Below are positions 6,825-45,634 of a DNA stretch of 64,000 nt, piece after piece; the first letter of the stretch is position 1, and the number at the start of each line of letters is the position of its first letter. Source of the DNA: an uncultured Chryseobacterium sp. GTDB taxonomy: Bacteria; Bacteroidota; Bacteroidia; Flavobacteriales; Weeksellaceae. The stretch covers positions 1 through 64,000 of the forward strand of contig CAJYXJ010000013.1 in assembly GCA_913778085.1 (NCBI GenBank). Reading direction: 5' to 3'. The notes beneath the pieces were generated by a model. That model saw only the letters and a list, made by a program, of their open reading frames with translations, searched no databases and had not been told where the DNA came from. Both the position numbers and the translations under genes were made by a program.

Positions 6825-7856
6825 TTGAAATTTTACAGGCTTACCCTCGTCGCCTCTTGTCTTTTGACATTGGTGATGTTTTTGTTAGTGATCACCTTCG
6901 ATTCGCTGAAGGATATCTATTACAGTACCCCGTTCTTCAAAATCGGGCTTTTCATCTGCCTCATCCTTATCTTTATCATTAATTATATCGTCCTGGAGCT
7001 GCTCTTTAACTATTATGGTAAAAAGCAGGTTCGCGGGCTTTCCCAGCTGTTGCCCCAGGAGATTGTTCATAACGATAATGAGAATATCACCATTAAAGAA
7101 TTAGGGGAAAGATTTTCAGACCTTAACCAGCAGAAAGTAACCGAGCTTGACATGATGAAAGAAATGGAAAGTTACCGGAAAGAATATATCGGCAATGTTT
7201 CCCACGAGCTGAAAACGCCGCTTTTTTCCATTCAGGGTTATGTGGAAACCCTGCGAGACGGAGGCGTGGATAACCTCACGATCCGCGATAAATATCTTGA
7301 AAGAATCGATAAGTCGGTGGAAAGATTAATCGCCATCGTTACCGATCTGGATATGATCAACCGGCTGGAAGCAGGGGAAATCAATCTTACCGTTTCAAAA
7401 TTTGATGTCAATCTCTTGATCAAGGAAATTTTTGATCTACTGGACCTTGAAGCGGAAAAACATAATGCCACCATGCAGATCCAGACCTTACAGCCGCAGA
7501 TTTTTGTAGAGGCAGATAAACAGAAAATCTCCCAGGTGTTCATCAATCTGATATCGAATGCCATTCATTATGCCAACAGGCAGGAAGCAAAAGTGGTCGT
7601 GAAAACAAGCATCCTCAAAAATAAAGTGCTTATTGAGGTGATCGACAACGGAATGGGTATCAAATCCGAAAGCCTTCCGAGGATTTTCGAGAGGTTCTAC
7701 CGCGTGGAAACCAGCAGAAGCAGGAGGGAAGGCGGTTCCGGCTTGGGGCTGGCTATCGTGAAGCATATCCTGGAGGCGCATAACGAAAATATTACCGTTG
7801 AAAGTGTCTACCTGGAAGGAACGAAATTCAGCTTCATGCTCGAAAAAAATAAATAA
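6825..7856 (+). CDS. PhoR-like sensor histidine kinase
   Basis: 343 residues starting at a TTG codon at 6825 (MKFYRLTL). The first downstream Met lies inside the first membrane helix, so the TTG start is favoured. Two N-terminal membrane helices (about 7-24 and 39-60) are joined by a very short loop, leaving no real periplasmic sensor domain. Next come a HisKA domain with the phosphoacceptor H127 (NVSHELKTPL) and a HATPase_c domain with N box (NLISNAIHYA), G1 box (VIDNGMGI), F box (RIFERFYRVE) and G2 box (GSGLGLAIVKHIL). All catalytic boxes are intact. It phosphorylates the preceding regulator. The lack of an extracytoplasmic domain resembles PhoR-type kinases, which sense through a partner or within the membrane. 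That assignment is family-based. Confidence 0.88.
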   Translation: MKFYRLTLVASCLLTLVMFLLVITFDSLKDIYYSTPFFKIGLFICLILIFIINYIVLELLFNYYGKKQVRGLSQLLPQEIVHNDNENITIKELGERFSDLNQQKVTELDMMKEMESYRKEYIGNVSHELKTPLFSIQGYVETLRDGGVDNLTIRDKYLERIDKSVERLIAIVTDLDMINRLEAGEINLTVSKFDVNLLIKEIFDLLDLEAEKHNATMQIQTLQPQIFVEADKQKISQVFINLISNAIHYANRQEAKVVVKTSILKNKVLIEVIDNGMGIKSESLPRIFERFYRVETSRSRREGGSGLGLAIVKHILEAHNENITVESVYLEGTKFSFMLEKNK

Positions 7857-8676: not shown

Positions 8677-9445
8677 GATTCTCGTCTGGATTCTACGGAA
8701 ATCGAAGATTCGACGAAGTCAATGACAAACTAAACGTAAATTTTCCATACTGTTTGTCTTTCCCGCAGGGAATCTCAACATAGTATTAGAAAACTGATGA
8801 CTGGAAATTCGCGCATTGATTTCTACGGAATGACAACCGAACGTAAATTTCCATACTGCTTGTTATTACCGCGGGGAATCTCAACATAGCATAAAGAAAT
8901 CATTGCGGAAAGATTCGCACTCAGATTCTTTCAGAATGACAAACAGACGGGGAAAATATGTTTGCAAAAATTCAACACGTCGTTTGTCATTCCCGCAGGG
9001 AATCTCAACATAGGATTAGAAAACTGATGACTGGAAATTCGCGCATTGATTTCTACGGAATGACAACCGAACGTAAATTTCCATACTGCTTGTTATTACC
9101 GCAGGGAATCTCGATATAGTATTAGAAAACTGATGACTGGAGATTCGCGTCTGGATTCCTGCGAAATGACAACCAAATGTAAATTTCCATACTGCTTGTC
9201 ATTCCCGCAGGGAATCTCGACATAGTATTAGAAAACTAACGACTGGAGATTCGCGCCTGGACTCCTGCGGAATGAAAACCCAACGTAAATTTCCATAATG
9301 TTTGTCACTCCCGCAGAGAATCTCAACATAGTATAAAGAATGAATACAGGCAATTAGCACTAAGATTCTTTCAGAATGAAAATAGGCCGGGAAAATATGT
9401 TTGCAGAAATTCAACACGTCGTTTGTCATTCCCGCAGGGAGTCTC
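8677..9445. repeat. Tandem array of ~106/122-bp palindromic units
   Basis: Seven copies of a core like CCCGCAGGGAATCTC start at about 8762, 8868, 8992, 9098, 9203, 9309 and 9430. Spacings are 106, 124, 106, 105, 106 and 121 bp. Each core is preceded by a partial inverse copy such as GATTCCTGCGGAATGAC, so each unit can fold into a long hairpin. Two unit types alternate as A-B-A-A-A-B, where B carries CTCAGATTCTTTCAGAATGA and a CAACACGTC stretch. There is no convincing ORF. The array ends about 90 bp before the amylase-family promoter. The same family recurs at 57840-58150. Confidence 0.85.
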
Positions 9446-34796: not shown

Positions 34797-36998
34797 TCAG
34801 TTTCCTAATTCCAGCTGATTCTTTACTAAATTAAAATAATCAGACTTCTTTTCAACGAGAGATTCATGGGTACCCTGTTCTGTAATACTACCCTGTTTGA
34901 GAACGATAATCTGATCTGCATTTTTTACTGTTGAAAGACGGTGTGCAATAACGATTACTGTTTTTCCTTTAAAAAATTCCTGCAGATTATTGTGGATGAT
35001 TTTTTCATTTTCAGCATCTAATGCAGAAGTTGCCTCATCGAATAAAATAAATTGAGGATTCTTATACACTGCCCTTGCAATAAGGATCCGCTGTTTTTGG
35101 CCTCCAGAAATTCCGTTGCCAGAAGCACCGATCTTAGTTTTCAAGCCTAAGGGAAGATCATTAACAAATGATTGTATATTAGCGGTACGTAATGCCATCT
35201 GCATTTTTTTTTCATTGATCATTTCATCGCTTGTTGCAATGTTTCTTTCGATGGAATCCGAAAAGATATGCCCGTCCTGCATGACAACCCCACAGTTGTT
35301 TCTTAGGTCTTTCGGAGATATATCAATAAGGTTGGCATGGTTGAAATAAATTTCCCCGTCTGTAGCATCATAGAATTTTAACAATAGCTTCATGAGGGTT
35401 GTTTTACCACTTCCACTTGCACCTACAATAGCTGTAATTTTTCCTTCAGGAATAAAGAGATTGATATCTTTCAGTACATGCGGAGACTGAGGACCTTCGT
35501 ACTGAAAAGATACATTTTTAAAGTAAATTCCTTTTTCTATACCATTCTGCCGGGTAAATCTTTCGTTCATCAGCGGAAGTAAATTTTTCTGTTCTTCTTC
35601 AGGATGATTCTGGACCTCATTAAGACGGGAAAGGCTGAGTTTCGCTTCCTGCATAGATCTGAAAAATGCAATAAGCTGTCCTACAGGAGAGTTCATCTGG
35701 CCGATGATATAAGAAACACTTAGCAGTGCCCCCAAAGACATGCTTCCATGAACCACAAATGAAGCAGAGAGAAAAATGACGATAATATTTTTCAGTTGAT
35801 TAATGAAATCAAATCCGGAAAGCTGGATCTGGTCAACTTTCAGTATTCTCAAATTGATTTTAAACAGTTTTTGCTGGATTTCTTCCCACTCTTTACGTTT
35901 ATATTCTTCAAATTGATTAAGTTTCATTTCGGAAATTCCGTTTATGATCTCATAAATGGATTCCTGATTTTCACTTTTTTCCTGAAAGCGATAATAATCC
36001 AGCACTTTTAATTTTTTGAGCCAATATAATGACCAGGCGATAGAAAGTGCAGTAAGGGTGAAATAGGTGGCCAGGATTCTGAAATCGTAGCTCCATAGCA
36101 CAATAAAGAAGACGGAAAAAGTAAAAACAGAAAAAATAGTAACCAGGCTGCTTGAAGTAAGAAAAAGCTCGATCTTTTCATGATCCTGTATCCTCTGATT
36201 AAAATCCCCCATAAATTTTGTTTCGAAAAATTTAATCGGAAGGTTCATCAGCTTTTTTAAGAAGTCGGAGATGATATTGATATTCAGGCGGCTGCCGACA
36301 TACAGCATAATCCAGTTGCGGAAAATACCCAAAATAATGTTTCCTGCAAAGAATGCAAGCTGAGCGACAAGAATATACGTAATGATCCCCATGTTTTTTT
36401 TTGATACTCCGTCATCGATCAGTTTTTGTGTGAGAATGGGTAGGGCCAAAGTGCTCACCGTACCTAAAAGAAGGATCAGCGAAAGCCAGATAAACTGTTT
36501 CTTATGTGGCTTTAGATAGTTGTAGAGATAATTCAGTGATATCTTTTGATCCGGAATGTCTTTGCTGTTAAAAAATTCATCGGTAGGCTGTAGTAATAGT
36601 GCGATGCCTTTATCGCTATTTTTCTGCCATGACTTTGTAAACTCTTCCTCCGTTAATTTTAATATTCCGTGTGCCGGATCAGCAATTGTAAAAGATTTAT
36701 TACGAGTAAAAACGGAATTTGAAATTTTTATAAGCACCACAAAATGATTTTGGTTCCAGTGCAGAATGCAGGGTAAAAATTCGTTTTTTAAATCCTCAAC
36801 CGAAATTTGTGTGGCCAGTGTTTCGAAGCCGATTTTCTGTGCGGCATTGTTAATGGCCAGAACCGAAACACCCTCCCTTGATATAAAGGAATGGTCGCGT
36901 AAATACTGCAGACCATATTCTTTGCCATAATATGAAGTGATCATGGCTAAGCAGGATGGTCCGCAGTCCATTTTATCATGTTGAGGAATAAATTTCAT
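34797..36998 (-). CDS. C39-peptidase ABC exporter (PCAT) of the putative RiPP locus
   Basis: 733 residues. N-terminal C39 protease (1-135): oxyanion Q6, nucleophile C12 in DKMDCGPSC, H85 in NQNHFVV and D107 in IADPAHG, all present, so it should cleave GG leaders. Membrane domain of about six helices (165-445). ATPase: Walker A GASGSGKT (526-533), signature SGGQ (631-634), Walker B ILFDE (651-655) and H-loop AHRLST. It removes the leader of the peptide encoded at 38403-38579 and exports the core. Its start codon shares a base with the oxygenase stop (TAATG), so they are translationally coupled. No HlyD-type adaptor or TolC gene is nearby. The protein is complete and probably functional. Confidence 0.92.
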   Translation of the reverse strand: MKFIPQHDKMDCGPSCLAMITSYYGKEYGLQYLRDHSFISREGVSVLAINNAAQKIGFETLATQISVEDLKNEFLPCILHWNQNHFVVLIKISNSVFTRNKSFTIADPAHGILKLTEEEFTKSWQKNSDKGIALLLQPTDEFFNSKDIPDQKISLNYLYNYLKPHKKQFIWLSLILLLGTVSTLALPILTQKLIDDGVSKKNMGIITYILVAQLAFFAGNIILGIFRNWIMLYVGSRLNINIISDFLKKLMNLPIKFFETKFMGDFNQRIQDHEKIELFLTSSSLVTIFSVFTFSVFFIVLWSYDFRILATYFTLTALSIAWSLYWLKKLKVLDYYRFQEKSENQESIYEIINGISEMKLNQFEEYKRKEWEEIQQKLFKINLRILKVDQIQLSGFDFINQLKNIIVIFLSASFVVHGSMSLGALLSVSYIIGQMNSPVGQLIAFFRSMQEAKLSLSRLNEVQNHPEEEQKNLLPLMNERFTRQNGIEKGIYFKNVSFQYEGPQSPHVLKDINLFIPEGKITAIVGASGSGKTTLMKLLLKFYDATDGEIYFNHANLIDISPKDLRNNCGVVMQDGHIFSDSIERNIATSDEMINEKKMQMALRTANIQSFVNDLPLGLKTKIGASGNGISGGQKQRILIARAVYKNPQFILFDEATSALDAENEKIIHNNLQEFFKGKTVIVIAHRLSTVKNADQIIVLKQGSITEQGTHESLVEKKSDYFNLVKNQLELGN

Positions 36999-38335
36999 TA
37001 GTTTTCTTCTTCTAATAACAGATTTTCTGCTTCCTGGATCACTGTATGAGTTTCTCCTACAATCTCAACTCCTTTTTTGTCATAGATCATCGAAAGGAAA
37101 TATAAACCAGCCTCTATTGGCCATTCATTTTCCAAATCTTTTAATAATTCTGATACTTTCCATACTTTATGGGTATTTAAATGATCAACGATGTTTAATA
37201 ATTCCGGATGGTATCTCATCTCTATTTTTGTACCTCTTACATATAAGAAAAGTTGATCTTTTACCTCATCTACTTTGTAAATCATTTTGAACGGCTCGTT
37301 TACATAAATTTCTTTTTCAAGAAGGAACTCATAATTCTCTACATTGTATTTGTCTTCTTTTTCTCTCGATTGTGGAGGAGCTTGCCATCCTGCATTACTT
37401 ACTAATCCATATTTAAACTCATTATAAAAATATCTGAAGAAATCTCTTGCTGATCCGTTAAGAATATCTTCATCAATTTTTAAAATAGATAAAAATTCAT
37501 CAAACGTCTGATTGTTTTCAAGGAAATTATGTTGTGGGCCAATAATTTCTTTATTCACATCTACGTAATCGGTATACAGAGTATTTAAAATCCGGTCGAA
37601 GAATTTTACTTTTGAAGGGTTATTAAACCAGAAGGTTACGCCTATTGATAATTCATCGCTTTTTCCGATATGAAATTTGTCCCAAGGCATAAAGAAAAGA
37701 TCTCCTGTTCCGAAACCATATTTTTCGGCGTGTTCCAGTAGCGGTTCGATTTCAAAATTGTTATGCTTGGTTCCTGTAAGATCTTTGTATTTTTCCTGGT
37801 CCCATATGTACATCGTTTTGTCACCGGGTCCCAGATGGAAATGCAAGACATTTTCGCCTTGATGATCCTGATGTATCCCCAGAGGTGTCCAACCATAATT
37901 TCCGATAAAAACAGTAACATCTACTCCGGTTGCCGGTATTCCGATAATTTCAAGAAGAGGCTCTGTAATGATTCTCAGTTCTTTAGAGATGAAATTTGAA
38001 TGTCTTTCTAAAAAATTGATAATCAATCCAAATTTTTCTTTAAACATTCTATTGCAATATTCTGTTATTTCTTCGTTTTCAAACGGCGGATTTTTATATA
38101 ATTCTTCAATGAAATCTGCATTTTCTTTTCCTTTACCTTGTGAGGGAAAGTATAGCCTGAAACCATCGTGATCTTTTGTTCTGAATCTGTTGATAAGGCC
38201 ATCTGTTACGGCCTCTTTTAGTTTCTTTATCAAATCCTGAGGGATTACATCCTTAATTACACAAGTTTGTGTAAAGTTTTTATTGGTTGCAATAAAGTCC
38301 TGCCAGAAATCTTTATTAAACTCTTTAGTACTCAT
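36998..38335 (-). CDS. JmjC/cupin-type oxygenase, candidate peptide-modifying enzyme
   Basis: 445 residues. A double-stranded beta-helix domain (about 130-245) holds a likely Fe(II) facial triad H155-x-D157 (PLGIHQDHQGENVLHF) and H222 (PWDKFHIGKSDELSIGVTFW). K173 in GPGDKTMYIW is a candidate 2-oxoglutarate ligand. This resembles JmjC/cupin_4 ribosomal oxygenases, which hydroxylate protein side chains (YcfD on an Arg of uL16). The C-terminal region (about 340-430) reads as three short strands (KMIYKVD, QLFLYVRG, TKIEMRY) followed by three helices (PELLNIVDHLN, VSELLKDLE, AGLYFLSMIYDK), a topology shared by PqqD-like RiPP recognition elements. Oxygenase winged-helix domains are an alternative. 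It sits between the precursor and exporter genes, so the precursor is the expected substrate. It is not an annotated RiPP enzyme type that I know. Confidence 0.75.
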   Translation of the reverse strand: MSTKEFNKDFWQDFIATNKNFTQTCVIKDVIPQDLIKKLKEAVTDGLINRFRTKDHDGFRLYFPSQGKGKENADFIEELYKNPPFENEEITEYCNRMFKEKFGLIINFLERHSNFISKELRIITEPLLEIIGIPATGVDVTVFIGNYGWTPLGIHQDHQGENVLHFHLGPGDKTMYIWDQEKYKDLTGTKHNNFEIEPLLEHAEKYGFGTGDLFFMPWDKFHIGKSDELSIGVTFWFNNPSKVKFFDRILNTLYTDYVDVNKEIIGPQHNFLENNQTFDEFLSILKIDEDILNGSARDFFRYFYNEFKYGLVSNAGWQAPPQSREKEDKYNVENYEFLLEKEIYVNEPFKMIYKVDEVKDQLFLYVRGTKIEMRYHPELLNIVDHLNTHKVWKVSELLKDLENEWPIEAGLYFLSMIYDKKGVEIVGETHTVIQEAENLLLEEEN

Positions 38336-38402
38336 ATTTGAATATTTTTGATAGTGAAAAAAGTAATAGAGAAAAATATTTTTTCTCTATTACAATTGTT
38401 AT

Positions 38403-38579
38403 TTATAAACCGATAACACGTTGAACTTGTTGAACTTGCTGAACAATTCTGCGTACTTGCTGTACAACACCGTCAGCTGCTTCGGCGTCACCGAAACCAC
38501 CTCTTAATTGATTTTGCTCAAGTGGAGAAAGAGTTTTTGCCTTTAAGAACTCTTTTGCGTTGAATTTTGCTTTTTTCAT
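38403..38579 (-). CDS. GG-leader RiPP precursor peptide
   Basis: 58 residues, ATG at 38579 to TAA at 38403-38405, too short for an ordinary ORF cutoff. The leader (1-28) begins MKKAKFNAKEFLKAKT and ends LSPLEQNQLRGG, the Bacteroidetes double-glycine pattern L-S-x-x-E-x-x-x-L-R-G-G recognised by C39 exporters. The predicted 30-residue core starts FGDAEAADG and continues as a Gln/Val/Arg repeat (VRRIVQQVQQVQRV) ending IGL. The core contains no Cys, Ser, Thr, Lys, His, Tyr, Trp, Asn or Pro. Hydrophobic residues every third or fourth position (V39, V42, I45/V46, V49, V52, V55/I56) suggest an amphipathic helix, with Arg at 43, 44 and 54. It lies 67 bp upstream of the oxygenase gene and 84 bp after the receptor gene. 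Confidence 0.85.
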   Translation of the reverse strand: MKKAKFNAKEFLKAKTLSPLEQNQLRGGFGDAEAADGVVQQVRRIVQQVQQVQRVIGL

Positions 38580-38614
38580 GATAATGAAAGTTTAAAATGA
38601 TTTGTTTTATGGAT

Positions 38615-38622
38615 CAAAGTTT
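38615..38622 (-). promoter_or_regulatory. Possible separate promoter for the precursor
   Basis: CAAAGTTT on the plus strand is AAACTTTG on the minus strand, one base from TAnnTTTG, in the 84-bp space between receptor stop and precursor ATG. It would allow precursor expression above that of the upstream receptor. Confidence 0.35.
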
Positions 38623-38663
38623 ATCGACATTAGCTCCTTCGCTGGTCTCTTCTTGCAAGAAAA

Positions 38664-41036
38664 TTATTTTGTAATCCTATCGATTTCTTCCTGATTTTTG
38701 GTCTCTCTTTCTTTTACGGTGCCTTCTAATTTGCCACCGAAATTATATGTGATTGCTAACCGGAAAAAACGATTGTCATAATAGTTTTTAAATGTGTTTT
38801 TTAGACCATTGCTATAAGTGGTATATTCTGGTCTGTTGCTGCTTAAAATATCGTTTAGCTGGAAAGATGCGGTCAGCTTTTTTTTAAGCATCAAATATTT
38901 TAATGTTGCATCAAGCTGATTTATTCCGGAGACGTAATTGATATTATCAACGCCTTTACTGCTTATGTTATAGGTAATATTTAATGATAAAGTTTTTGCT
39001 TGATTTAAAGTCACATCATTGCTTATATTTAAATTAGCATTCCAGCCATTTAATTGATTTGGTGTTTCAGGGATATAAGATTTTGAGTGGCTGTAAAAAA
39101 CTGTTCCAGAGATATTTGTAATAATATTCTTACTGATATTAATATTTAAAATTTCACTCAGTCCCAGATCATAAGAATTGATGAAGTTTAAATATTTTAT
39201 TTGGCTTACTTTTGTTTCCTGATCAATAAGTGAAAACTGATTAAATCCATCTTTCAGAAAATTAATGAAAAGTGTACTTATCAAAATACTTTTATAAGTA
39301 TGTGATAACTCGAAATTATCTGAAATTGAAGGTTTTAGTATTGGGTTTCCTTCTGAATAAGTAAAAGGAGAAAGTATCCATCGAAAAGGATTCAGTGCAT
39401 CAAAAGCCGGTCTGTTTATTCGTTTTCCGTAATTGAACGAATAGGTGTTTTTTTCATCAGGGCTGTACACAATATAAAATGTCGGAAAAAATTTAATGTA
39501 ATTGTTTGTGGTTATTATATTCCTGAGTACTGAGTTTCCCTCAAGCTGCGTATTTTCTATTCTCAAGCCAAACTTTGCTTCGACGGGAACCGTGAATTTT
39601 TTACTTGCAGAAGCATATAATGCCTGAGTATTTTCTTTTAGAATGAAATAATCGGTAAGGCCCGTGTTTTCAGTTAAAATATCATCAGCAATGTCGAAAT
39701 GATTATATCTGTTTTTAGTAGTAATGAAAGAAAATCTTGCTCCGTAATTTAAGTTTATACCATCCTCTTTTAAAGGGTGCTCCATATCAATATTCACAGA
39801 ATAATTGCTTACTTTTTGGTTTCCTTTCGCTAACGAATTTTGTAAAGTGTTTCCTTCACTTACTGTTGTAAATCTTCTGTTGGTTTTATCATTGAGATTC
39901 AAAAGATCAAAATCCGCAGATAGTATTCTTCCCTTTTCATCAATATTATAGATAAAATGATAATTGAAAGTATGTAGCCTGTCTTTTATATCCGCTGATC
40001 CTTTCGTATTTAAAGTCGTCAATTCTCCGTTATCAATATCCGTTACGGAATTATCCAGAATTTCAGGATTGGAAAAAATGCCGTTATATTTTAACCCGTT
40101 GGTTATTTTTTTTGATTTATATTCCAGGTCCAGCTTTGTATTGAATCTGTCTGAAAGGTCTTTTCTCTTGTTTGCCGTATTCCATCTTTCGGTAGGGTAA
40201 AAGATGCTGTTGGTTTCTACCGGAGCCGTTTTACCTTTAGTGTAGCCCAGATTGGCTAATAAAGACAGATTATTCTTATTGTAGTTTAATGTGCCACCCA
40301 GACCTCCCGTAGGATAGGTTGCCTGATGGTAGACAGATCTCAAAGAGGTATTCCACGTATCCTTTTTTTGTTTTTTCATGACGATATTGATCAGCCCGGA
40401 ATTTCCTTCTGCAGAGTATTTTGCAGGAGGATTTGTAATTAGCTCAACCGACTTTATATCGTCGGATTTTATGGTTTTTAAATATTCAGTCAAATCATTT
40501 CCTGTAAGCTGAACCAATCGGTTGTCGATCATAATCATTAAGTTTGATTTCCCTGTTATTGAGATATTCTCATTAGCTACCCGTACACCCGGTACTTTTC
40601 CTATAGCATCTAAAGCATCTCCGCCGGAGGCTGCAATAGAGTTCTCAATATTCAGGATAAGGCGGTCTACTTTTCTCTCTATTAATTTTCTTTGATGCTG
40701 AATAACAATACCTTCTATATTTTTTATGGCTTCAATTCTGTAGTTTTTTGTTATGTCACTGCTTACAGTAAGATTTTCACTGAAAACCTTATTTGTATTT
40801 TGAAAAATTTCTATCAGGTAATTGCCCGGTGTTAAACCTTTCATATTATATTCTCCTTTTTCGTTGGTAATGGAAGAATATTTTTGCTGATTTTCTTTAG
40901 TAGCAATTATCTCCAAATCTTTCATCCCAATTCTTGAATCATTGGTAACCACACCTGACAGGTTTTGTGCAAAAAGAGGTATTCCATAGCAAATAAATAA
41001 AATGAATAATAATATTTTGCGCAGCTTCGTTTTCAT
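38664..41036 (-). CDS. Outer-membrane beta-barrel receptor of the RiPP locus
   Basis: 790 residues: signal peptide (ILLFILFICYGIPLFAQ), a CarboxypepD_reg-like domain (25-105, GVVTNDSRIGMKDLEI), a plug (about 120-225 with GGDALDAIGKVPGVRV and YSAEGNSGLINIVMKK) and a C-terminal OMP_b-brl_3 barrel. It belongs to the TonB-dependent-receptor-like outer-membrane beta-barrel proteins common in Bacteroidota, and is frequently found beside GG-leader peptide clusters. It is the first gene of the leftward operon before the precursor, oxygenase and exporter. It could take up the mature peptide, sense it, or help it across the outer membrane; sequence alone cannot decide. Codon usage is markedly AT-rich (many ATA, AAT, TTA) compared with housekeeping genes nearby. 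Confidence 0.85.
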   Translation of the reverse strand: MKTKLRKILLFILFICYGIPLFAQNLSGVVTNDSRIGMKDLEIIATKENQQKYSSITNEKGEYNMKGLTPGNYLIEIFQNTNKVFSENLTVSSDITKNYRIEAIKNIEGIVIQHQRKLIERKVDRLILNIENSIAASGGDALDAIGKVPGVRVANENISITGKSNLMIMIDNRLVQLTGNDLTEYLKTIKSDDIKSVELITNPPAKYSAEGNSGLINIVMKKQKKDTWNTSLRSVYHQATYPTGGLGGTLNYNKNNLSLLANLGYTKGKTAPVETNSIFYPTERWNTANKRKDLSDRFNTKLDLEYKSKKITNGLKYNGIFSNPEILDNSVTDIDNGELTTLNTKGSADIKDRLHTFNYHFIYNIDEKGRILSADFDLLNLNDKTNRRFTTVSEGNTLQNSLAKGNQKVSNYSVNIDMEHPLKEDGINLNYGARFSFITTKNRYNHFDIADDILTENTGLTDYFILKENTQALYASASKKFTVPVEAKFGLRIENTQLEGNSVLRNIITTNNYIKFFPTFYIVYSPDEKNTYSFNYGKRINRPAFDALNPFRWILSPFTYSEGNPILKPSISDNFELSHTYKSILISTLFINFLKDGFNQFSLIDQETKVSQIKYLNFINSYDLGLSEILNINISKNIITNISGTVFYSHSKSYIPETPNQLNGWNANLNISNDVTLNQAKTLSLNITYNISSKGVDNINYVSGINQLDATLKYLMLKKKLTASFQLNDILSSNRPEYTTYSNGLKNTFKNYYDNRFFRLAITYNFGGKLEGTVKERETKNQEEIDRITK

Positions 41037-41238
41037 ACATCAGCATCAGGTTTTATTAATTTAAGAAATGAGTATCATTTTATTCAATCATATTATTAGC
41101 TTCCAAATATTCCAACCTCCTTCCGGTTTACAAGTTTTTAGCAGTTTATAACAGCTGTATTTTTCATTTTTAAAAATCTTGGCTGACACTATCTGATCAT
41201 AATCTGATCTTAAAAAGATTTGTCTTGGTCATGTGAAT

Positions 41239-41246
41239 TATTTTTG
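41239..41246 (+). promoter_or_regulatory. -7 box upstream of the LuxR-type regulator
   Basis: TATTTTTG matches TAnnTTTG, with TTG at about 41220-41222 as a possible -33. The regulator ATG is 90 bp downstream, leaving room for the dyad at 41277-41292 inside the leader. Confidence 0.45.
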
Positions 41247-41276
41247 TAAATTTATATGGATTGATTTATTTAGTTA

Positions 41277-41292
41277 CTACACAATAGTGTAG
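41277..41292. promoter_or_regulatory. Perfect dyad in the divergent intergenic region
   Basis: CTACAC-AATA-GTGTAG: 6-bp inverted repeat with a 4-bp spacer, 45 bp before the regulator ATG and 240 bp upstream of the receptor ATG. The size fits a LuxR/FixJ-type operator. The encoded regulator is the obvious candidate to bind it. No clear -7 box was found for the leftward operon. Confidence 0.45.
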
Positions 41293-41336
41293 AATTTTCA
41301 ATAAAACAGAAAAATCGATAAAAACTAATAGCTAAA

Positions 41337-42104
41337 ATGAATTTTATGAATGAGAATATAAATGGTTTATTTTTCGTTAACAGTATAGTAAACGAGATTT
41401 CATCTGAAAAAAATCATCAGTTAAACGCTTACCTTCAAGTGACCGAAGCCTTTTCAAGGATAAATTATATGAGTGTTTATATAATTGACTATCAAAATAA
41501 AAATTTCGAATATGTATCGGATAATCCTCTGTTTTTATGTGGACATACGGCTGCAGAAGTAATGAAAATGGGATATAGTTTTTACTTTAAATGTGTAAAA
41601 GAAGATGATCTTGATCTTTTGCTTAAAATCAATCAGGTTGGATTTGATTTTTATAATAAAATTCCCGTTGTTGAAAGAAAACAATATACGATATCTTATG
41701 ATTTTCACATGTTAAATAAAAAGAGACCTATTCTTATTAATCATAAATTAACGCCTATTTTCCTTACTGAATCCGGACAAATATGGAAAGCAATCTGTGT
41801 AGTTTCTCTTTCTGCTCATACCAATGCCGGAAACATGACAATTTTTAAAGAAGGTGAAAGCCAATTTTGGCGCTACGATTTTAATGGTGATTATTGGAAA
41901 AATGAGCATAAAATAAAATTATCGGATCGCGAGCTTGATGTACTGATATATTATGCCCAAGGTTATACCATTAATGAAATTGCAGACAAGATTTTCGTTT
42001 CGCCTGACACGGTAAAATTCTACCGTCGGAAATTATTTGAAAAAATGCAGGTATCCAGTATTTCGCAAGCCCTATCATATGTTACAAATCATAAGCTCTT
42101 ATAG
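41337..42104 (+). CDS. PAS-LuxR transcription regulator of the RiPP locus
   Basis: 255 residues; a second in-frame ATG at 41346 is possible. The N-terminal ~170 residues form a PAS-like sensor (YMSVYIIDYQNKNFEYVSDN, MKMGYSFYFKCVKEDDL). The C-terminal 60 residues are a GerE/LuxR helix-turn-helix (LSDRELDVLIYYAQGYTINE then IADKIFVSPDTVKFYRRKLF). There is no phosphoacceptor receiver. It diverges from the receptor-precursor-oxygenase-exporter operon with a dyad between them and shares its AT-rich composition, so it probably controls the cluster. The ligand is unknown. Confidence 0.82.
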   Translation: MNFMNENINGLFFVNSIVNEISSEKNHQLNAYLQVTEAFSRINYMSVYIIDYQNKNFEYVSDNPLFLCGHTAAEVMKMGYSFYFKCVKEDDLDLLLKINQVGFDFYNKIPVVERKQYTISYDFHMLNKKRPILINHKLTPIFLTESGQIWKAICVVSLSAHTNAGNMTIFKEGESQFWRYDFNGDYWKNEHKIKLSDRELDVLIYYAQGYTINEIADKIFVSPDTVKFYRRKLFEKMQVSSISQALSYVTNHKLL

Positions 42105-42165: not shown

Positions 42166-42168
42166 AAG

Positions 42169-42241
42169 TGGTTTCTCCAGGAATCGAACCAGGGACACAT
42201 GGATTTTCAATCCATTGCTCTACCAACTGAGCTAAGAAACC
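42169..42241 (-). tRNA. tRNA-Phe(GAA), copy 1
   Basis: 73 nt. The minus strand starts GGTTTCTTAGCTCAGTTGGT and has a 7-bp acceptor stem (GGTTTCT/AGAAACC), D loop AGTTGGTAG, anticodon stem-loop ATGGATT-GAA-AATCCAT with anticodon GAA, and T arm CCTGGTTCGATTCCTGG. CCA is not encoded. The sequence is the same as that of copy 2 over the whole tRNA by eye. Confidence 0.97.
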
Positions 42242-42355: not shown

Positions 42356-42361
42356 TCTAAG

Positions 42362-42434
42362 TGGTTTCTCCAGGAATCGAACCAGGGACACATGGATTTT
42401 CAATCCATTGCTCTACCAACTGAGCTAAGAAACC
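42362..42434 (-). tRNA. tRNA-Phe(GAA), copy 2
   Basis: 73 nt, the same sequence and cloverleaf as copy 1 (anticodon GAA). Promoter box and tRNA are duplicated together, which points to a tandem duplication of a promoter-tRNA unit. Confidence 0.97.
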
Positions 42435-44395: not shown

Positions 44396-45634
44396 TTATT
44401 GTGTTACCATTTGAAGTGTATTCTTCGAAATCTGCTCCAATAATACGTTTTTTTCCTGGTAAAATTGGTCTATGTTTTCGATCTTCGCATTTCTTACGGT
44501 AAATAAAGATACATTTTTTACAACTTCCGTCTTAAAAACTTTCTGAAGTTCTTCATTTAATTCTTCAATGGTGTGGAATTTATCTTCCAGGCATAAAGCT
44601 AATGAGATCGCAGAATTCTGCATCAGCGAAACTTTAATTTTATATTTCGATAAATATCCGAAAATCAGGCTCATATGGTCTTCCGCAATAAATGAGAAAT
44701 CTCTGGTTGAAATTTTCAGTAACGTCTGGTTTTCCTTTAAAATATAAGATTCTTCGCTCTGGTTCTTTTCTGAAGCCCCGACTTTCGTCCCTTCTTTGGC
44801 AGGATCAACGAAGGATTTTACATAAAAAGGAATATTTTTCTGCTGAAGCGGCTGTAAGGTTTTCGGGTGTATAACACTTGCCCCGTAATAAGCCATTTCA
44901 ATAGCTTCTTCGTATGAAATATTGGAGAGCAGGGTAACATCTTTGAATTTTCTCGGGTCTCCCGTCATAACTCCCGGCACATCTTTCCAGATCGTCATCG
45001 CCTCGGCATTCAGGCAGTAAGCGAAAATCGCAGCCGAATAGTCGGAACCTTCTCTTCCTAAAGTTACCGTAAAATTGTTTTCATCTGACCCGATAAAGCC
45101 TTGGGTGACATAACAGATTTCCTTATTCAGATTAGAGATAAATTCTTCCGTCTTTGTCCAGTCTACAACACCTTCACGGTATGAATTGTCGGTTTTCACA
45201 TAATCCCGGGCATCGAGCCACTGGTTGGTAAACTGAATCTCGTTCAGGTATTCGCTTACAATTTTTGTGGAAATCATTTCTCCACAGCTTACTACCTGAT
45301 CATAGACAAAACTGTAGTTCGGCGATTTGTTTCGCCGTAAAAAAGAATCGATATCGTCAAAAAATAAATTGATCTCCGCAAATACAGCGTGATTCTCAGG
45401 GAATAATCCTTCCGCAATCTCAATATGTTTCCGTTTTATCTTTTCAATCTCCGTTTGATAGTTATCCTTTTTGAAATAAAGCTCCACTACTTTTTCCAAC
45501 TCATTCGTCGTCTTGCCCATCGCTGAAATTACCAGCAGACATTTGGCAAATCCCTGGCTTTTTAAAACCATAGATACGTTCTTTACGCTTTCGGCATCCT
45601 TTACCGATGCTCCACCAAACTTGAAAATTTTCAT
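44396..45634 (-). CDS. lysC: Aspartate kinase
   Basis: 412 residues: N-terminal kinase domain with KFGGASVKDAESV (catalytic KFGG), VTLGREGSDYSAAIFA, IWKDVPGVMTGDPR and YYGASVIHPKT, then two ACT-like regulatory segments (about 300-400). It phosphorylates aspartate for lysine, threonine and methionine synthesis. It is monofunctional, with no fused homoserine dehydrogenase. It has a -7 box upstream and OlsF downstream as a likely operon partner, an unusual pairing without obvious metabolic logic. Confidence 0.93.
   Translation of the reverse strand: MKIFKFGGASVKDAESVKNVSMVLKSQGFAKCLLVISAMGKTTNELEKVVELYFKKDNYQTEIEKIKRKHIEIAEGLFPENHAVFAEINLFFDDIDSFLRRNKSPNYSFVYDQVVSCGEMISTKIVSEYLNEIQFTNQWLDARDYVKTDNSYREGVVDWTKTEEFISNLNKEICYVTQGFIGSDENNFTVTLGREGSDYSAAIFAYCLNAEAMTIWKDVPGVMTGDPRKFKDVTLLSNISYEEAIEMAYYGASVIHPKTLQPLQQKNIPFYVKSFVDPAKEGTKVGASEKNQSEESYILKENQTLLKISTRDFSFIAEDHMSLIFGYLSKYKIKVSLMQNSAISLALCLEDKFHTIEELNEELQKVFKTEVVKNVSLFTVRNAKIENIDQFYQEKNVLLEQISKNTLQMVTQ

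Follow-up and report, generated by a model that had tools for sequence, protein, structure and literature searches.

Gene content of the locus

We analysed a window of 64,000 nucleotides from an uncultured Chryseobacterium sp. (assembly GCA_913778085.1, contig CAJYXJ010000013.1, positions 1 to 64,000 of the forward strand), and in particular a gene cluster that an earlier note, made from the sequence alone, had described as a putative new locus for a ribosomally synthesized and post-translationally modified peptide (RiPP). Its centre encodes a short peptide with a leader ending in Gly-Gly (GG), a JmjC-type oxygenase and a C39 exporter, as follows.

34797..36998, minus strand: C39 peptidase-ABC exporter, 733 residues (PF03412, E=6.3e-34; PF00005; PF00664), predicted to cleave after GG and export the core
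36998..38335, minus strand: JmjC-type oxygenase, 445 residues, with H155-x-D157 and H222, G171-x-K173 and a C-terminal domain of about 110 residues
38363..38393, minus strand: terminator-like hairpin of 14 bp plus T-tract between the precursor and oxygenase genes (z=-6.0)
38403..38579, minus strand: precursor peptide gene, 58 residues
38496..38579, minus strand: leader MKKAKFNAKEFLKAKTLSPLEQNQLRGG, 28 residues (E=3.8e-17 with the leader hidden Markov model, HMM, this leader being among the 20 used in building it)
38406..38495, minus strand: core FGDAEAADGVVQQVRRIVQQVQQVQRVIGL, 30 residues, of low complexity (relative to equally long stretches of proteins, p=0.0022 for entropy and p=0.0003 for the repeat score)

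The anatomy given in the earlier note holds. All five open reading frames (ORFs) that it claimed, including the barrel and regulator genes described further below, are open at the positions claimed; the oxygenase stop overlaps the exporter start in a TAATG junction, and the leader terminates in LSPLEQNQLRGG. As in C39 exporters of GG-leader peptides, the exporter combines C39 peptidase, membrane and ABC domains according to Pfam, and it scores below the NCBIfam cut-offs of the named models shown. The predicted C39 triad can be read from its sequence as C12, H85 (within HFVV) and D107, which we take to be the catalytic residues.

Ten ORFs flanking the cluster in the window were compared with Pfam; nine belong to ordinary families and one has no match. 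As the earlier note had stated, no radical SAM, LanM, YcaO or ATP-grasp gene is among them (44396-45634 lay outside the scan), nor is any enzyme of the lanthipeptide, graspetide, sactipeptide or YcaO classes, the flanks of the relatives being mostly unannotated. Within these ten ORFs, no known type of RiPP maturase accompanies the oxygenase, in agreement with the view of it as the sole candidate.

Recurrence of the precursor-oxygenase-exporter unit

The unit recurs, with its gene content and order conserved. After removal of duplicates (12 of 40 loci from a scan of named genomes for two active-site motifs and 2 of 5 from a further set), 53 distinct loci were obtained, window included, of which 50 could be assessed; the motif scan supplied 24 of these and a similarity search 26. 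Loci and genomes are designated by L and G numbers. The three loci left aside are L045, whose contig starts inside the gene, L083, on a contig of 4.1 kb, and L084, where the match is in pieces. A GG-leader peptide lies beside the oxygenase in 48 of the 50 loci, 46 recognised by the leader HMM at E<1e-3 and two (L080 and L081) by eye, and the similarity-search loci taken alone give 24 of 26. Oxygenase homologues mostly lacking such a peptide, the outcome that the earlier note had named as counting against its proposal, were thus not what we found. The C39 exporter is present in 45 of the 50. Among the other five, the contig of L042 ends, and none was seen in the stretch examined of L058, L081, L121 or L122; the ORF lists of the last two contain no exporter-sized C39 ORF.

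The enzyme was found in 17 of 174 Chryseobacterium genomes, in 19 of 297 genomes sampled across the family (a set overlapping that of the genus), in 10 of 346 drawn from the order (with a different query) and in 2 of 395 drawn from the phylum (with a profile, at most four candidates being scored per genome), each count including the window's own genome. The 40 loci of the motif scan comprise 39 titled Bacteroidota and one Massilia, and their genera include Chryseobacterium, Aquimarina, Flavobacterium, Zobellia, Kordia, Tenacibaculum, Pedobacter, Niastella and Chitinophaga, among others.

Precursor and enzyme also co-occur. When the genus was searched with a profile built from 22 precursors, several being Chryseobacterium sequences, 16 of 173 genomes gave a match at E<=0.001, at one site each, and all 16 carry the enzyme. 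The seventeenth enzyme-bearing genome, G077, is not among these matches, presumably having not been drawn, and its precursor is present in L024. Among 7334 short ORFs in the collected loci (868 kb, duplicates included), the leader HMM gave 73 matches at E<1e-3, every one of them no more than about 1 kb from an oxygenase gene. This is so partly by construction, since the HMM was built from 20 of the same leaders; what is informative is that the 868 kb contain no further short ORF passing the threshold.

A conserved leader and low-complexity cores

The precursors combine a conserved leader with a variable core, as expected of RiPP precursors in the broad sense: among eight V/Q-type precursors, mean identity is 87.5% in the leader against 59.2% in the core. 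The cores are strikingly simple in sequence. Across 54 distinct cores (a set without L072, which contains a run of N, L080, L081 and L119), 45 have an entropy below that of 95% of stretches of the same length taken from neighbouring proteins, and 44 exceed 95% of these stretches in short-period repeat, results that are not independent because the cores are related. We distinguish V/Q/R cores (the window and its nearest kin), (VT)n, (KV)n, (EK)n, V-K-E-T, K-rich, poly-Q (7-17) and His/Asp-rich cores; those of L080 and L081 fall outside all named types. Over 56 cores (without the near-duplicate L031), Val, Lys and Gln predominate, and Trp occurs in none, Tyr in three and Cys in six. As for the poly-Q tracts, CAA and CAG codons are mixed in all eight examined, and slippage as their sole origin was rejected on this ground. 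Pfam and NCBIfam yielded no credible match for 22 precursors, that of the window lying above no cut-off.

A locus may hold up to six precursor copies. Odd copies with KCKCKCKCK or QCQCQ stretches were seen among K-rich and poly-Q siblings in L064 (5641-5793) and L074 (7475-7648).

The earlier note had expected a helical product, and this does not extend to the family. Among 16 hand-chosen cores (poly-Q excluded, p values uncorrected), a helix-like hydrophobic moment at p<0.05 was obtained for only three, namely the window core (p=0.018), L026 (0.019) and L033 (0.003). Five cores (L034, L042, L060, L066 and L085) have a strand-like moment, and the remaining eight neither.

A hairpin often follows the precursor gene. 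The gap between the precursor and the next gene was folded for 24 of the 50 assessable loci, and in 20 of them the structure reaches z<=-3.5 relative to mononucleotide shuffles. The structures of L055 (z=-2.6) and L076 (z=-2.8) are weaker, and the two shortest gaps, in L035 and L065, gave no hairpin on folding. Stem sequences differ between clades, and a T-run does not stand behind every stem (L086). Since a terminator-like hairpin follows its gene, the precursor would be made in excess over the enzyme.

The oxygenase family

H155, D157, H222 and K173, the first three forming the triad predicted for the window enzyme, are retained in all but one of the 49 enzymes aligned, a set that counts tandem copies and lies apart from L121 and L122; the exception is the second copy in L083. 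Pfam gave two plausible families for the 49 enzymes and no other: PF08007 (JmjC_2), which matches 30 of them at E<=0.1 with a best value of 2.9e-5, and Cupin_8, which matches eight. NCBIfam gave nothing credible for any of the 49, and the window enzyme exceeds no Pfam or NCBIfam cut-off. The JmjC assignment of the earlier note is thus better founded for the family than for the window protein. With the RoxA/YcfD ribosomal oxygenase of Escherichia coli, the region at the second metal-binding His aligns in hhalign, over 50 columns only (probability 22%, P=0.00093), and the C-terminal domain is not matched (20 columns, P=0.19).

This C-terminal tail had been described as resembling a RiPP recognition element (RRE). 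When it was aligned with 21 PqqD domains by hhalign, the expected helices fell in register, with a non-significant score of 14.7 that 2 of 100 column shuffles reached. Pfam PqqD matched none of ten C-terminal pieces of enzymes, and profiles from the PDB gave weak matches only, mostly PI3K SH2 domains, with a best E of 0.051.

Several loci contain two or three tandem oxygenases. Outside the Bacteroidota, the oxygenase match of L084 (Massilia sp. H-1) is in several pieces and is perhaps a decayed transferred gene.

Enzyme lineage and core type

A tree was built from 48 enzymes whose core labels were assigned by hand, leaving out the second L083 copy, L046, L119, L121 and L122. The partners of several core types each form one clade, with Shimodaira-Hasegawa-like approximate likelihood ratio (SH-aLRT) supports of 82 for seven poly-Q partners, 99 for four His-type, 100 for seven V/Q and 100 for three (KV)n. 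The 12 core labels require 15 changes on the tree against a mean of 35.6 when shuffled, a clustering that partly reflects relatedness. The poly-Q clade is nevertheless not mere species kinship, because it spans Chryseobacterium, Riemerella, Altibacter, Kordia, Aquimarina and two uncultured bins, and because other Chryseobacterium enzymes lie elsewhere. As judged from these sequences, enzyme clade appears in part to track core type, in several clades that include the moderately supported poly-Q one.

Receptor, regulator and other neighbours

The rest of the cluster as first described, and the region between its divergent genes, comprises the following.

38664..41036, minus strand: TonB-type outer-membrane barrel protein (OMP_b-brl_3), 790 residues (PF14905, E=1.2e-80), a recurrent but not constant partner
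41277..41292, no strand assigned: small dyad CTACACAATAGTGTAG between the divergent genes
41337..42104, plus strand: LuxR-family regulator, 255 residues (PF00196, E=4.1e-16), a neighbour whose membership is doubtful

The dyad is found where the earlier note had placed it; promoter scans (sigma-70 type and TAnnTTTG) returned chance level only. As a constant member, the receptor does not stand: tblastn located its gene in 31 of 46 loci and Pfam in L044 and L046 (33 of 46 altogether), the gene is present in L119 too, and it was not seen in the closest relatives, L021-L029 (tblastn) and L048 (ORF list).

The proposed PAS-LuxR regulator is a LuxR protein by its GerE domain (PF00196), its sole Pfam match, and the PAS-like N-terminus comes from the earlier reading. 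The idea that it is dedicated to the cluster is weakened, as homologues at E<=1e-30 are present in 76 of 119 Chryseobacterium genomes against 17 of 174 for the oxygenase. The LuxR gene adjoins the cluster in the ten V/Q-type loci and in L063, L064, L065, L068, L072 and L073. A gene for a 218-residue protein, which has no Pfam match, occurs in 23 of 119 genus genomes, always within about 350 bases of the LuxR gene (23 of 23), and 21 of these 23 genomes lack the oxygenase. A trio of ThiF-like (PF00899), LuxR and 218-residue genes flanks the cluster in L021 (8896-11164), L022, L025, L063, L064, L065 and L068. Because the LuxR family is common without the cluster and is paired with the 218-residue gene, the regulator probably belongs to a separate module that the cluster often adjoins; it may still regulate the cluster. 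A defence function was considered and rejected: PADLOC on five proteins gave ABC-ATPase, HTH and E1/ThiF similarity, which we read as generic, and the 218-residue protein had one weak match (E=0.0034).

Weakly similar accessory proteins of 105-143 residues are encoded in the nine distinct poly-Q loci and some others, near the precursor, oxygenase and exporter genes (L035 at 7377-7808, L046, L044, L071, L073, L074, L086, L057, L061, L070 and L063). They share a weak SYxxSxTF...IELKxxxLKIxY pattern, and some have signal-peptide-like starts. Elsewhere in the window, two adjacent tRNA-Phe genes (GAA) lie beside the peptide cluster at 42168-42241 and 42361-42434, and units of about 106 bp containing GTCATTCCCGCAGGGAATCTCAACA are repeated in tandem at 8721-9445.

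Comparison with known systems

Iyer et al. (2010) reportedly predicted Jumonji-related peptide-modifying dioxygenases in bacterial secondary-metabolism operons. A sister paper, PMC2922099, names JOR/JmjC enzymes in predicted peptide operons. In biphenomycin biosynthesis, the JmjC enzyme BipG gamma-hydroxylates ornithine in a RiPP precursor, according to the accessible text of PMC12707348. The window locus resembles those of BipG and BpmG in that a JmjC-type enzyme is encoded with a RiPP precursor; the biphenomycin loci, unlike it, also feature an MNIO (multinuclear non-haem iron-dependent oxidative) enzyme, a B12-type radical SAM enzyme, an Arg-to-Orn step, an HExxH hydroxylase and a TldD-type peptidase (PMC12707348 and PMC12257519, in their accessible parts). 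No MNIO or radical SAM domain was detected in the ten flanking window ORFs, and the core contains no FRF. Compared by description and not by sequence, the window locus differs from the BipG loci in having the JmjC-type enzyme as the sole candidate maturase seen, and its family in having repetitive cores.

Fusions of JmjC (PF08007) and RRE domains are noted in the 2025 RRE-Finder paper (PMC12710340), which places their bacterial homologues in RiPP-like contexts. They join a JmjC domain to a proposed RRE-like domain, as has been suggested for the window enzyme, and may include its family; the accessible part of that paper gives them one sentence, in which precursor family, exporter and core are not described. 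BipG is thus an earlier example of JmjC hydroxylation in a RiPP pathway, and RiPP-like contexts had already been noted for JmjC-RRE fusions. The unusual features here are that no maturase other than a JmjC-type enzyme is apparent and that the cores, of low complexity, follow enzyme lineage in several clades. We found no description of the precursor family or of poly-Q RiPP cores in the literature searched, which reached few subscription papers.

A proposed pathway and its alternatives

Of the initial claim of a new RiPP locus, the conserved unit formed by the GG precursor, the JmjC-type oxygenase and the C39 exporter is supported; constancy of the receptor, a dedicated regulator and a family-wide helix are weakened. 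Judging from gene content and sequence features, we think it likely that this is a RiPP-type locus in which a repetitive core undergoes leader-guided JmjC-type oxidation, followed by GG cleavage and export. The terminator-like hairpin would yield the precursor in excess, and the JmjC-type enzyme would recognise the conserved leader, perhaps through its C-terminal domain. With Fe(II) and 2-oxoglutarate (2OG) it would oxidise side chains in the repetitive core; hydroxylation is the likeliest reaction, and more than one repeat position would probably be affected. Next, the C39 exporter would cut after GG and move the modified core out of the cytoplasm, and in many relatives the TonB-type barrel would complete the unit.

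Several observations weigh against this reading. No target residue obviously common to the cores emerges, and the (VT)n core contains no K, R, Q or H. The window enzyme reaches only 14.9 bits with PF08007, under the gathering cut-off of 22, and sequence searches returned no relative of solved structure. In L121 (6419-7615) and L122 (6181-7368), both from one genus, the HxD motif of the homologue is replaced by HxE and no GG precursor lies nearby, and the two-motif scan would miss such HxE-type kin. To the part played by relatedness in the clustering of core labels must be added that the K-rich and V-K-E-T labels change five and four times on the tree and form no clades. Finally, PbsQ, a cupin-like relative of BipG, gave no further modification on co-expression with its precursors, according to the accessible part of PMC12257519.

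It is tempting to carry leader-guided oxidation further. A single leader-guided JmjC oxygenase might iterate along low-complexity cores, with enzyme lineages specialised for core types, and the exported oxidised repeats might self-assemble outside the cell as a strand- or fibre-forming material, oxidation tuning solubility before export. We regard this extension as rather unlikely.

It is unlikely, too, that the enzyme acts on the core by desaturation, cross-linking or macrocyclisation instead of simple hydroxylation. 2OG-dependent enzymes do catalyse many oxidations, and the tandem oxygenases of several loci may indicate more than one step. A 2025 report known from its title as cited in PMC12710340 concerns alpha-ketoglutarate-dependent dioxygenase-catalysed macrocyclisation in RiPPs. 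However, the usual cross-link partners Trp, Tyr and Cys are nearly absent from the 56 cores, and the characterised JmjC RiPP enzyme, BipG, hydroxylates (PMC12707348, accessible part).

Export of the peptide without modification, in the manner of a class II bacteriocin or a signal peptide, with the oxygenase acting on another protein or idle, appears unlikely. C39 exporters also handle unmodified GG peptides, and the inactivity of PbsQ in its own RiPP cluster under the reported conditions would fit such a scheme; its weakness is that precursor and enzyme stand together in 48 of 50 loci and that several enzyme clades follow core type.

We find it improbable as well that receptor and regulator are integral, the product being a ligand, metallophore or signal, that is imported through the TonB-type barrel and sensed via the LuxR protein. 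The barrel gene in 33 of 46 loci, the His/Asp-rich cores of two Chitinophaga loci and G922, and the LuxR gene beside the cluster in ten V/Q-type and six other loci all speak for it. They are countered by the receptor not being seen in the nearest relatives, by the wide occurrence of the LuxR family in the genus (76 of 119 genomes, and beside the 218-residue gene in 23 of 119), and by the poly-Q tracts, which presumably lack the usual metal ligands.

That the precursor is a chance ORF with a GG motif in an ordinary transporter operon, as its mere 58 residues without credible Pfam or NCBIfam match could suggest, is hardly credible, given a leader that is conserved across many genera and co-occurs with the enzyme in the genus, with 73 of 73 leader matches near an oxygenase gene and 16 of 16 genus matches in enzyme-bearing genomes.

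Significance

With a peptide of 58 residues and a single enzyme, the locus offers a compact two-gene system in which to test whether repetitive sequence is oxidised under the guidance of a leader, and its relatives carry bacterial poly-glutamine peptides encoded by mixed CAA and CAG codons. Annotation will probably overlook such loci or give them vague names, since NCBIfam credibly matches none of the 22 precursors or of the 49 enzymes. Should the oxygenase act along the repeats, it could become a tool to hydroxylate designed repeat peptides, and it would connect a peptide pathway of bacteria with the JmjC enzyme superfamily, which acts on histones and ribosomal proteins.

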